Positions 3,404 to 30,474 of a stretch of DNA of 64,000 nucleotides are shown piece after piece (within the stretch, counting starts at the first letter, position 1; every line of letters starts with the position of its first letter). The stretch is from Halococcus salsus (GTDB lineage Archaea; Halobacteriota; Halobacteria; Halobacteriales; Halococcaceae): the NCBI RefSeq assembly GCF_009900715.1, contig NZ_JAAAJC010000004.1, positions 62,001-126,000 on the forward strand, written 5' to 3'. Under the pieces are notes generated by a model that did not search any database, was not told where the DNA came from, and saw nothing but the letters and a program-made list of their open reading frames with translations. A program made the translations under genes and the position numbers.

Positions 3404-4627
3404 ATGGCACGCGAGGTCGACTACGAGCCGCGCAGCGTCAAGCGACTCCTCGCGGAGATGAAGGACATCGCCGAGCTCATGATCGACCTGTCGTACTCGG
3501 CGGTGCTCCTCGACAGCGACGAGGTCGCCGAGGAGGTCCTCCAGCTCGAATCCGAGATGGACGTCCTCCAGCTCAGAACCCACATGAGCCTGCTGATGGC
3601 CTCGCGCACCCCCGACGACGCCGAGGCGCTCGCCCCGGTGTTGGGGATCGTGGGCGCGACCGAGAAGGTCTCCGACGCGACCGGCGACATCGCGAAGGTC
3701 GTCCTCGAGGACATCCGGCTACCCGACGCGATCCGGGCGGCGCTCCCCGAGGCGGTCGAGACCCTCGTGCGCGCCCGCGTCGACCCCGACTCCCGGTTCG
3801 TCGGGGAGACCCTCGGCGGGCTGAACCTCGAAACCGAGACGGGGGTCAGGACCATCGCGATCCGGCGGGCCGGCGAGTGGATCCTGAACCCGGACCGCGA
3901 AACACAACTCGAACCCGCCGACGTCGTGCTGTTCCGAGGACCGGACGAGGGGGTCGCGGGGGTCTATCAGAGCACCACCGGCGAGGCCTACCTCCCACCG
4001 GACCCGCCCGAACCCCACACCCCGGACCTCGAACGCGCGATGGACTCGGTGGTGTTGATGAAGAACATGAGCGAGCTCGCGGTGGACCTCGCCTACGGCG
4101 CGGTGCTGTTCGACAGCGAGGCCCTCGCCGAGGAGGTCCTGAACCTCGAAGCCGAGGTCGACGCGCTCCAGTCGCGGTTCGAGGCCTGGACCCTCCGGGC
4201 GGCGGGCCGGGTCGAGGACCCGGTGTCCCTGCGGGGGCTGGTCCACCTCGCCCGAAGCACCGAGGTGATCTCCGACGCCGCCCTGGAGATCAGTGAGGGG
4301 GTCCTCCGCGGGATCGCCTCGCATCCGGTGATCGCCGAGGCCGTCAGCGAGTCCGACGAGGTGCTCGTCCGCGAGCGGATCGCGGCGGGGGGCGACCTCG
4401 ACGGTACGACGCTCGGGGAGGCGATGGTGAAGACCGAGACCGGGATGCGGGTGATCGCGGTCCGGCGGGCAGGCGGAGAGCGCACGACCGACGAGCGCGA
4501 CGACTGGGTGGTCTCGCCGGGGCCGAACACCGAGCTCCGGGCGGAGAACGTCCTGCTGGCGAAGGGGCCGCGAACCGGGGCTGACCGGCTTCGTGAGGCC
4601 TGTGGGGAGACGTCGAACACTCAGTAG
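3404..4627 (+). CDS. PhoU / TrkA_C double-repeat regulatory protein
   Basis: A 407-residue protein with an internal duplication. Residues ~5-95 and ~205-295 are helical PhoU-like domains (each with a SYSAVLLDSDEVAEEVL or AYGAVLFDSEALAEEVL segment). Residues ~110-195 and ~305-400 are TrkA_C-like ligand-binding domains (GETLGGLNLETETGVRTIAI and a second copy). This matches COG3273-type proteins. TrkA_C domains usually control K+ or other ion transporters, but there is no transmembrane helix or Rossmann RCK_N domain here, so the partner channel is elsewhere. The ATG at 3404 was chosen because the upstream extension reads through the promoter (CTTTTGCCC near 3375-3383). Confidence 0.75.
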   Translation: MAREVDYEPRSVKRLLAEMKDIAELMIDLSYSAVLLDSDEVAEEVLQLESEMDVLQLRTHMSLLMASRTPDDAEALAPVLGIVGATEKVSDATGDIAKVVLEDIRLPDAIRAALPEAVETLVRARVDPDSRFVGETLGGLNLETETGVRTIAIRRAGEWILNPDRETQLEPADVVLFRGPDEGVAGVYQSTTGEAYLPPDPPEPHTPDLERAMDSVVLMKNMSELAVDLAYGAVLFDSEALAEEVLNLEAEVDALQSRFEAWTLRAAGRVEDPVSLRGLVHLARSTEVISDAALEISEGVLRGIASHPVIAEAVSESDEVLVRERIAAGGDLDGTTLGEAMVKTETGMRVIAVRRAGGERTTDERDDWVVSPGPNTELRAENVLLAKGPRTGADRLREACGETSNTQ

Positions 4628-27626: not shown

Positions 27627-29411
27627 GTGAACGTTCGGGCGTACGGACGGTTCTTCGTCGTCCTCCGGCAGTTCCTCCCCCTGATTCTGGCGTACCTCCG
27701 CGACCGCCGGCGGTTCGTGGTCTTCGGCGGCCGGCGGCGGGTCACGAGCGAGATGCGGACCGAACGCGCGCGGATACTGCTGGACTCGTTGCTCACCCTC
27801 GGGCCGACGTTCATCAAGCTCGGCCAGATCCTCTCGACCCGGCCCGACGTCCTGCCCGGCGAGTACGTCGCCGAGCTCTCGAAACTCCAAGACGAGGTGC
27901 CGCCCGCCGAGTGGGACGAGGCCCGGCAGGTGATCGAAGCCGAGTTCGGGTCGGCCGAGACGGCGTTCGACTCGTTCGAGACGGACGCCATCTCGGGGGC
28001 GAGCCTCGGGCAGGTCTACCGCGCCGAGTTCGAGGGCGAGGCGGTCGCGGTGAAGGTCCGTCGACCGGGGATCGTCGACCTCGTGGAGGCCGACCTCAAG
28101 GTGGTGAAGTGGAGCCTCCCGCTGGTGATCCGGTTCATCGGTGAGGCGCGGTCGTTCTCGCTCGAAACCCTCGCCGAGGAGTTCGACAAGACGATCCACC
28201 AGGAGCTCGACTACGCCCGCGAGGCCCGGATGCTCCAGGAGATCAAGGGCAACTTCGCCGACAACGACGAGGTCCGGATCCCGGAGGTCGTCGAGGAACG
28301 CTCCACCTCGCGGGTGCTCACGATGGAGTACGTCTCGGGCACGAAGATCACCGCGGTCGACGAGCTCGATGCGATGGGGGTCGACCGAACGGCGCTCGCC
28401 GAGCGGCTCGAACGGGTCTACCTCCAGATGATCGTCGACGACGGCGTGTTCCACGCCGACCCACACCCGGGCAACCTCGCGGTCGAACCCGACGGCACCC
28501 TCGTGTTCTACGACTTCGGCATGAGCGGCCGGGTCGATCCCTACATCCAGGACAAGATCATCGAGTTCTACATGGGGATCGCGAACCAGGACATCGACGC
28601 GATCCTCGACGCACTGGTCGAGATGGGCACCCTCAGCCCGGAGGCCGACCGCGAGACGATGGGCAACGTGATGGAGCTCGCGATCCAGGACGTCCGCGGC
28701 GAGGAGGTCGAACAGTACCGCGTCCAGGAGGTGGTGAGCCAGGTCGAGGACACCATCTACGAGTTCCCCCTCAGGCTACCGGCCAACCTCGCGCTCGTGC
28801 TCCGGGTGGCGACGGTGGTCGAGGGCGTCTGTGTCACGCTCTCGCCGAAGTTCGACTTCATCTCGGTCGCCACCGACTACCTCGTCGAGCAGGGCTACCG
28901 TGAGGAGGGTGTCCGACAGTTCCTCGAAGGCCGGAGCGAGGAGGTGCAGGACCTCGCACGCGCGGCGGTCCGAACCCCGCCGAAGATGGAGCGCCTGCTC
29001 GACCGCCTCGACCGCGAGGACATCGTGCTCCACACCGACATCGAGGACACCGACAACCTGCTCGACACCCTCGCGAACCGGCTGATCTTCGGGGTGCTCC
29101 TCGCGGTCGGGGTGCTCTCGACGACCTTCCTCTACGCGACCACCGACCTCATCGCGACGGGCGTGGCGGCGGCGTTCTCGCTGGTGGTGGCGTTCTACCT
29201 CGCCCGGTCGTTCCGGCGATCGACCCCGGTCGCGGACACCGCACCGGAGTTCACGCGCCAGGGCTTGAGCCAGCCGCCCGGTAGGCAGGGGAACGAGCAG
29301 GACGGACAGAGCGGTATCGAGGCGATGGCGCAGACTGGAAGCGACATCGCCGACGACGCGGACGCCGAGTCGATCGCTATCGAGCGCGAGTCCGACGACT
29401 CGAAGCGATGA
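27627..29411 (+). CDS. UbiB/ABC1 (ADCK)-family atypical kinase
   Basis: A 594-residue UbiB-type protein with a GTG start. The family-specific KxGQ region is TFIKLGQILSTRPDVLP (~54-70). An Ala-rich nucleotide loop is ASLGQVYRAE with the catalytic-site Lys in VAVKVRRPGI. FHADPHPGNLAV and FYDFGMSG are the catalytic and metal-binding loops. Two C-terminal hydrophobic helices (~485-530) give a membrane anchor, and a Ser/Asp/Glu-rich tail follows. Members support quinone or lipid metabolism; the archaeal substrate is not known. It is 10 bp downstream of Hsp20. Confidence 0.88.
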   Translation: MNVRAYGRFFVVLRQFLPLILAYLRDRRRFVVFGGRRRVTSEMRTERARILLDSLLTLGPTFIKLGQILSTRPDVLPGEYVAELSKLQDEVPPAEWDEARQVIEAEFGSAETAFDSFETDAISGASLGQVYRAEFEGEAVAVKVRRPGIVDLVEADLKVVKWSLPLVIRFIGEARSFSLETLAEEFDKTIHQELDYAREARMLQEIKGNFADNDEVRIPEVVEERSTSRVLTMEYVSGTKITAVDELDAMGVDRTALAERLERVYLQMIVDDGVFHADPHPGNLAVEPDGTLVFYDFGMSGRVDPYIQDKIIEFYMGIANQDIDAILDALVEMGTLSPEADRETMGNVMELAIQDVRGEEVEQYRVQEVVSQVEDTIYEFPLRLPANLALVLRVATVVEGVCVTLSPKFDFISVATDYLVEQGYREEGVRQFLEGRSEEVQDLARAAVRTPPKMERLLDRLDREDIVLHTDIEDTDNLLDTLANRLIFGVLLAVGVLSTTFLYATTDLIATGVAAAFSLVVAFYLARSFRRSTPVADTAPEFTRQGLSQPPGRQGNEQDGQSGIEAMAQTGSDIADDADAESIAIERESDDSKR

Positions 29412-29427
29412 GCGCGAGGGAGGAGAG

Positions 29428-29500
29428 TGCGTCAGCCGCGATTTGAACGCGGGTCATCAGCATGGGAAGCTGAGGTGATACCAGGCTACACCACTGACGC
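29428..29500 (-). tRNA. tRNA-Gly (anticodon CCC)
   Basis: On the minus strand the acceptor stem pairs GCGTCAG (29500-29494) with CTGACGC (29435-29429), followed by discriminator A. The anticodon stem TCAGC/GCTGA encloses TTCCCAT, giving anticodon CCC. The T arm reads CCGCG-TTCAAAT-CGCGG. No intron is seen and CCA is not encoded. A TATA-like CGTTATGGG lies about 30 bp upstream at ~29526-29534. Confidence 0.95.
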
Positions 29501-29640
29501 GCACACGTCGATCGCACCACGAGCCCCATAACGATGACGGTCCGCACCACCGACACCGGTCGGCCGTCCGCGAGCGGTTTCGGTCACGGCAGCCGTCTCG
29601 ACGCGATCAGAACGTTTTTATCTACACCGAACACCCATCC

Positions 29641-29712
29641 GATAGACTGGCATTGGGACCAGTCTGGGAACTCCAACGAAGGGTGATGCCACGCAACGGG
29701 TTCTCCTCTTTT
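29641..29712 (+). ncRNA. candidate structured small RNA
   Basis: A TATA-like TTTTTATC (29615-29622) is followed, about 25 bp later, by a segment that can fold into two hairpins. The first is AGACTGG (29644-29650) with CCAGTCT (29659-29665). The second is GGGAACTC (29666-29673) with GGGTTCTC (29698-29705, including two G-U pairs), with a small GTG/CAC helix inside. A CTCTTTT run (29706-29712) could end transcription. No protein frame of note is present. The promoter, fold and terminator are seen in sequence; that an RNA is made is inference. Confidence 0.4.
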
Positions 29713-29751
29713 GATACCAGCCGTCGAGCGGTGCCGTCGGCCCGTCGCTGA

Positions 29752-30474
29752 CTACACCGAACCGAGCCGCTCGCGACCGCGTGCTTCGTGAAGCGTCCAC
29801 AGTGTAGCGGCCGCCGTCCCGTCGAACCGCAACGGCCGCCGCCACCACGGTCCCTTCCCCGAATCGCTCGACAGCTCGGTCACGAGTTCGTTGGCGTCGA
29901 CACCCGCCGTCGGTGCGGAGAGGGGTATCGCGCGGTCGTAGAGTCCCGACCCATCGGGGTCGCCCGCGAGCAACACCCGCGCGTCGAACGTCTCGCGTTT
30001 GCAGTGGGCGTTGGTGGCGAACCGCTCGCGTTCCGCGGCCGGGAGGGCGCGGTACGCCTCGCCCGAGACGGGGTCGGCGGCGAGTTCGAACCCACCGATC
30101 AAGTAGGCACCCCACTCGGGGGGCTGCCGGGCGGTCGGCTCGCCGACCATCGAGAGCGTGGCGTAGAACAGCACGAGGTCGCCCGTATCGAGATCGAGGA
30201 GGGGGCGTGCCTTGACGCCGAAGGGGTCACCGTAGGTGTAGCGCTCGCCGGAGGGGTACTCAGCGAACTCGGGGTCGAGGTGGACGGGCGCGTCGAGCGC
30301 GTCGGCTGGGATCGCGGTTTCGAGGTCGAGGTCCCGGTAGGTCGGGACGGGTTCGGCGACCGGTTCGGGCTCCGGGATCGGGACGAACTCGAAGCGGCCG
30401 TCGGGGTGGACCGGTCCCCGAACGCCCGGCGCGTTGGTGTTGGCCCCGACGTTGATCGCGACGGCACGCGGCAT
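29752..30474 (-). CDS. putative Nmad3-like nucleotide-modification-associated protein
   Basis: A 240-residue soluble acidic protein starting MPRAVAINVGANTNAPGVRGP, followed by a FEFVPIPEPEP segment and a C-terminal HCKRETFDARVLLAGDPDGSGLYDRAIPL region. The N-terminal pattern and length recall the Nmad3 family (nucleotide modification associated domain 3), proposed from gene context to act in DNA or nucleotide base modification. No catalytic residues are proven and no restriction or methylase gene is nearby. TATA-like TATATATAC at ~30577-30585 could serve this gene with a longer leader. Confidence 0.45.
   Translation of the reverse strand: MPRAVAINVGANTNAPGVRGPVHPDGRFEFVPIPEPEPVAEPVPTYRDLDLETAIPADALDAPVHLDPEFAEYPSGERYTYGDPFGVKARPLLDLDTGDLVLFYATLSMVGEPTARQPPEWGAYLIGGFELAADPVSGEAYRALPAAERERFATNAHCKRETFDARVLLAGDPDGSGLYDRAIPLSAPTAGVDANELVTELSSDSGKGPWWRRPLRFDGTAAATLWTLHEARGRERLGSV

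Follow-up and report, generated by a model that had tools for sequence, protein, structure and literature searches.

The window, the 64,000-nucleotide stretch of Halococcus salsus DNA analysed here, carries at positions 29615-29712 a TATA-like box, two stem-loops and a U-run, all of them present in the sequence as given in a preliminary description. That description had read them as a free-standing sRNA gene on the plus strand adjoining a tRNA-Gly(CCC) gene on the minus strand, and the tRNA was confirmed. The features of the locus are listed by their positions in the window.

27627-29411, plus strand: ABC1-kinase gene
29427-29500, minus strand: tRNA-Gly(CCC), not part of the element, a neighbour at all 6 orthologous loci
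29610-29622, plus strand: promoter-like GAACGTTTTTATC, in which the AACGTTTTT box is unchanged in 6/6 orthologues within an otherwise poorly conserved stretch
29615-29622, plus strand: TATA-like box TTTTTATC, read in the sequence
29644-29650/29659-29665, plus strand: P1 hairpin of 7 bp, AGACTGG/CCAGTCT, present in copy groups 2, 4 and 17
29666-29705, plus strand: P3 stem-loop, with the 17-nt core in and around its loop
29666-29673/29698-29705, plus strand: 8-bp stem of P3, GGGAACTC/GGGTTCTC, with two G.U pairs, read in the sequence
29677-29683, minus strand: P2 arm CGAAGGG (5′ arm on the plus strand, which is the 3′ arm of the minus-strand hairpin)
29683-29699, minus strand: 17-nt family core GTGATGCCACGCAACGG, the minus-strand loop being CCGTTGCGTGGCATCAC
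29706-29712, plus strand: pyrimidine/U-run CTCTTTT
about 29721-29728, minus strand: other arm of P2, CCGTCGAG on the plus strand, beyond the coordinates of the preliminary description
29752-30474, minus strand: Nmad3-domain gene (PF18754, nucleotide-modification associated domain 3; E 1.7e-51)

On the minus strand, the Nmad3 stop codon precedes the P2 arm by 23 nt. Rfam analysis at the curated cut-off showed that matches in the window were tRNAs only, as they were in 16 other loci, and a search of 29500-29760 gave no match up to E=10; a tRNA or other Rfam RNA was ruled out by these searches, and the earlier statement that the element matches no tRNA, 5S, SRP or RNase P RNA was borne out. The fold, previously taken as evidence on the plus strand, is ordinary there and not above chance (z -0.80, 35 of 200 shuffles folding equally well); on the minus strand, z was -2.74 and 1 of 200 shuffles was as good. 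The above-chance signal is conservation rather than the plus-strand fold, since the core does not vary among the 6 orthologous loci of the window copy and recurs at 83 sites in 10 genomes, and the window feature is very probably an RNA element. Its 3′ end, given as 29712, probably falls short of the minus-strand structure, the other arm of which lies further on.

A DNA search of 10 Halococcus genomes gave matches in all 10, mostly several in each, with one short core common to all. Allowing at most 1 mismatch, the core GTGATGCCANGCAACGG was found at 83 sites in 10/10 genomes, against 1 match for the reversed-pattern control, and these sites were classified in this analysis as 71 hairpin copies (3 to 15 per genome), 10 start-codon sites and 2 unclassified sites. 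The stretch in the window is one copy of a Halococcus-specific, multi-copy hairpin RNA family and not a lone sRNA gene; the proposal of an RNA element is very probably right, and that of a single gene does not hold, since the core recurs. Among 292 genomes of the class Halobacteria, 8 had the exact core, all of them Halococcus. With 1 mismatch, the 8 Halococcus genomes of the class sample had 3-16 matches each, and 11 of 274 genomes outside Halococcus had one match each, approximately the background level (10 reversed-control matches). Two genomes of another genus in the same family had no core, and among the matches listed in a named-contig scan, those outside Halococcus were scattered across many phyla. 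Relaxing the search of the window's own genome to 3 mismatches returned background only (5 sites at 3 mismatches; 10 in total for the reversed control). A search of the open-access literature found no description of this Halococcus RNA family.

The 73 sites away from start codons fall into 30 groups by flanking sequence; the two unclassified sites, L234 and L256, were kept among the 73, so that two of the 30 groups are unclassified single sites. At L234 (3998) and L256 (4001), a core-like GTGATGCCAAGCAGCGG directly follows a small GC-rich hairpin, an arrangement conserved between two genomes; it is no sibling hairpin, and not clearly a target either. Three tandem hairpin copies occur within about 600 nt in two genomes (L187, G000:C1:601223-601800; L200, G002:C22). 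Several family copies also have a tRNA gene about 90-260 nt away, both in the window (tRNA at 29427-29500) and at L189, L208, L214 and L220, and tRNA flanks look like favoured sites for them. A cis-acting riboswitch or leader was ruled out as the neighbouring genes are often convergent or divergent, and copies such as L212 and L226 lie between convergent genes and so are not always upstream of a codirectional gene. Coding sequence was ruled out because the reading frame past the core is not conserved (by eye).

In minus-strand folds, during which the core was held unpaired, a long hairpin has the 17 nt in its loop in nearly all of the 73 copies. The arms of this hairpin differ between paralogues across the 30 groups (for example, GGACAGCGGGG/CCCUGCUGUCU, AGCGGGGGCGA/UCGUCCCCGCU, GGACCAACG/CGUUGGUCC and UGGAGUUGGGAGGGG/UCCCUCCUAACUCCA). 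Native arms gave a mean of -20.3 kcal/mol, compared with -16.2 kcal/mol for arms exchanged between groups; they were the best of 30 in only 9/30 groups, and in a second test with wider flanks and another score they beat all chimaeras in only 7/30 groups. A double compensatory change from U-A to C-G was seen between related copies in group 3 and in group 5. When 44 of the 73 copies were aligned with MAFFT, RNAalifold gave no common stem and only 4 pairs, inside the core, which can be attributed to arms that are not alignable across groups. What is claimed is therefore that compensatory changes occur among the copies of a group and that arms are replaced from one group to another; a single consensus fold is not claimed. 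The copies thus share, several to a genome, a conserved stretch (71 hairpin copies, 10 genomes, 30 groups) that is unpaired within a conserved structure, though the aligned copies have no common stem. The stems noted in the preliminary description are not conserved as such across the family, in which it is the 17-nt loop that is constant. An H-type pseudoknot is possible in groups 2, 4 and 12.

The strand of transcription was assessed from promoter-like elements, wobble pairs and U-runs. A match to the promoter-like 14-mer CACAAAGCTTATTA, defined as at least 11 of 14 positions at 35-110 nt upstream of the core, was present on the minus side in 43/73 copies and 14/30 groups, the 14-mer having been derived from the very copies in which it was counted; at the same threshold, matches were found on the plus side of 1/73 copies and in 0.011% of 18140 random windows. 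The hairpin structure starts about 21 nt after this element (by eye), a spacing in line with that between TATA box and start site in archaea. Wobbles in P2, the helix enclosing the core, gave 27 cells for the minus strand vs 3 for the plus strand in groups 2, 4 and 17, and a weak excess over all groups (86 minus vs 53 plus; 13 groups vs 7). U-runs failed as a strand criterion, the minus and plus sides being alike. On this sequence evidence, it looks as though most copies of the family are transcribed from the minus strand, opposite to the strand first proposed.

For the sub-group to which the window copy belongs, the earlier assignment to the plus strand retains support. In groups 2 (that of the window copy), 4 and 17, a promoter-like box on the plus strand precedes P1 by about 25 nt, the AACGTTTTT box of group 2 being invariant in 6/6 orthologues; changes in P1 preserve pairing on the plus strand only (4 G.U cells vs 0 on the minus strand), and the plus strand is also favoured by promoter-like boxes in groups 2, 4, 6 and 17. 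In group-4 copies, P3 is GGGAAAC..GTTTCCC, after which come four or five T in a row (CTTTTT), and U-runs after P3 are found in group 4 and in most of group 2. The loci of groups 2, 4 and 17 may therefore be read from both strands, to judge from these signals. At the group-4 loci L191, L196, L202 and L204, CACAAAG-type promoter-like elements flank the RNA and face each other. The group-6 copies L209, L223 and L231 (core at 4008, 3992 and 3985, respectively) lie, in three genomes, about 150 nt upstream of a codirectional dinucleotide-binding-like gene, and have a TTTATTAT box on the plus strand as well as a GGTATACATACC palindrome; these copies may be mRNA leaders or plus-strand RNAs.

Ten of the 83 core matches overlap start codons, with the core in the mRNA sense, and a hairpin around the core is not a reliable feature there. 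One set belongs to zinc-finger microproteins of about 40 aa (MQRDTGAG...CKKCGKGM...CYHC), in which GGTGATGCC is followed directly by ATGCARCGR (in RNA, GGUGAUGCC and AUGCARCGR), which puts the start codon at core position 9. The other belongs to Tat-secreted proteins beginning MPRNG..., MPRND..., MQRNE... or MLRSD..., in which G is followed by ATGCCACGCAACGA and variants (in RNA, G and AUGCCACGCAACGA) and the start codon is at core position 4. As the start codon stands at position 4 in one set and at position 9 in the other, what the two sets have in common is not a peptide: unrelated proteins share nucleotides in different frames, a likeness for which protein ancestry cannot account. The Tat starts are related to one another, and part of the likeness among them could be due to protein ancestry. 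Four extra ATGCAGCGCAGCGG sites (L327-L330) were rejected, as they lie within related long genes and not at trusted starts. At L264 (G000:C2:108034-108147) and L265 (G002:C42:109896-110009), a zinc-finger microprotein gene lies between two sRNA copies, with flanking cores at 107674 and 108261 in G000, and the start site GGTGATGCCAATGCAACGG is shifted by one base.

Pairing was assessed by the duplex energy of a 27-nt loop with each start region, compared with 400 shuffled loops; the counts exclude L315, L344, L347 and L349, which lack an in-frame ATG, and L270, whose start was not located. Tat starts within Halococcus reached p<=0.01 in 26/29 cases (mean -33.8 kcal/mol), compared with 1/20 for Tat homologues outside the genus (mean -16.5 kcal/mol), and zinc-finger starts reached p<=0.0025 in 9/11. 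Among 431 further gene starts predicted in the retrieved loci, 4 reached -26 kcal/mol, and one of the 4 is a Tat gene. The shared loop is thus complementary to mRNA initiation regions, as in sibling sRNAs, and start-site variants often preserve G.U pairing with it (CCA to CCG, CAC to CAU, CAA to CAG). The zinc-finger family had relatives at E<=1e-3 in 5/99 genomes, all Halococcus, and none in 91 non-Halococcus genomes of the order, leaving no outside control for the zinc-finger starts; at E<=10 there was no relative in the Halococcus genomes G003, G004, G008 and G009. Neither the zinc-finger nor the Tat target had a Pfam match at E<=0.01.

The explanation we favour, and hold to be reasonably probable from the sequence comparisons, is that the family consists of Halococcus-specific sibling antisense sRNAs whose loops would pair at start codons and block the initiation of translation. 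In a typical copy, the CACAAAGCTTATTA-like promoter on the minus side of the core would drive a short RNA, the stem-loop of which would expose the conserved 17-nt CCGUUGC(G/C)UGGCAUCAC as an unpaired loop. This loop would base-pair with the start-codon region of the zinc-finger microprotein and Tat-secreted protein mRNAs, so that the start codon would be covered and ribosome binding blocked; in the zinc-finger mRNAs, the pairing would also cover GGUGAU in the putative Shine-Dalgarno position. Several siblings might tune the dose or answer different signals. The multi-copy conservation, the hairpin context, the promoter-like element and its strand, the complementarity to start codons in two frames and the genus restriction were all computed; from these, we infer transcription, pairing in the cell and repression by the sibling RNAs. 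Sense RNAs of groups 2, 4 and 17 might act as decoys, and that from the window copy, a plus-strand RNA with the sense core, could pair with the sibling loops as a target mimic. A wider and more doubtful proposal is a two-sided circuit in one archaeal genus, in which antisense siblings would shut the Tat and zinc-finger starts, sense RNAs from the opposite strand (groups 2, 4 and 17, including the window copy) would soak up the siblings, and both strands of the group-4 loci would be under the same CACAAAG-type promoter element.

The window copy itself may be such a plus-strand sense RNA mimicking the target (a sponge), and this is the weakest step of the explanation. The minus promoter is kept in 4/6 orthologous loci (G003, G004, G007 and G009) and is missing in the window and in G002, where the end of the Nmad3 gene occupies its place; a minus-strand product of the window copy would therefore be possible only as the 3′ UTR of an Nmad3 transcript. 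As the plus-strand box, P1 and the U-run remain, the likeliest product now would be a plus-strand RNA with the sense core. That the element acts on the plus strand as a free-standing sRNA, a decoy carrying the target start-site sequence, is a serious contender that falls somewhat short of an even chance: besides the loss of the minus promoter, it is favoured by the unchanged AACGTTTTT box about 25 nt before P1, by the P1 wobbles, which include a G.U-type change on the plus strand in 3/6 orthologues, and by the U-runs that follow P3 in group 4 and in the majority of group-2 copies, whereas the plus-strand fold is no better than that of shuffles, the T-rich TATA is a loose match and most orthologues retain the minus promoter. 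Alternatively, the window copy may be dead, given its broken P2 pair (one or two mismatches) and absent minus promoter. A decaying relic without function is the less likely of these outcomes, as the core, P1 and the AACGTTTTT box are intact and shared with G002, in which P2 pairs perfectly over 7 bp.

Two other explanations for the whole family were weighed against antisense pairing. The copies could be a protein-binding RNA motif or a DNA site, with the start sites serving autoregulation by the zinc-finger microproteins and no RNA-RNA pairing being involved. A short invariant core in variable stems does resemble a protein-bound loop, and the zinc-finger genes have the core at their own start codon; however, the core at start-codon sites is not reliably in a hairpin, the Tat genes also carry it, 4/10 genomes have hairpins and Tat sites without a zinc-finger relative at E<=10, and the frequent retention of G.U pairing with the loop in start-site variants also speaks for pairing, making autoregulation improbable. 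Very improbable is the proposal that the copies are small non-autonomous mobile elements, with the core as a transposition end or as the scaffold of an IscB/TnpB guide. They are multi-copy and genus-restricted, with some near tRNA genes and some near OrfB-like proteins (L190, L196 and L244, recognised by eye), but paralogues share little beyond the 17 nt, element boundaries and target duplications were not seen in an unsystematic look, and OrfB-like neighbours occur at only 3/72 loci (by eye). An adjacent tnpB or iscB gene, the mark of a TnpB/IscB guide RNA, is not the rule among these 72 loci.

Sibling multi-copy sRNAs are known from bacteria, such as LhrC, Qrr and CsrB, and copies of the LhrC type pair near the start site of several mRNAs. 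The Halococcus family resembles these in having several copies per genome with one conserved unpaired stretch in common, and differs in being archaeal, in reaching 15 copies, in having arm sequences nearly unrelated between copies and in a 17-nt loop that covers the start codon itself. Unrelated arms with one fixed loop would show how sibling sRNAs arise. To our knowledge, targets or pairing sites are known for only a few archaeal sRNAs; here, the loop is conserved and restricted to the genus, as are the start-codon sites, making the predicted pairing directly testable by compensatory mutation.

The predicted zinc-finger targets are, like the haloarchaeal micro-proteins for which the account in PMC6562870 documents phenotypes in Haloferax, small with a single zinc finger, and differ in having their relatives within Halococcus, as judged at E<=1e-3 against the 91 other genomes of the order. 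Haloferax sRNA132 is likewise encoded by an intergenic haloarchaeal sRNA gene, and the available part of its description treats it as a single gene, without a shared-loop family (PMC6560208). A parallel in mode of action is Methanosarcina sRNA162, described as an archaeal trans-acting sRNA that masks a predicted ribosome binding site and is limited to close relatives, all of which it would share with the Halococcus family; according to the same account, it differs in pairing via a single-stranded linker rather than a hairpin loop and in having one close homologue, sRNA171, instead of a large family (PMC3510493). Within the genus, the itsRNA STRG.48671.1 is reported as a conserved intergenic Halococcus transcript of 69 nt (PMC7002113), short as expected of the RNAs predicted here, and it may be a member of the hairpin family.
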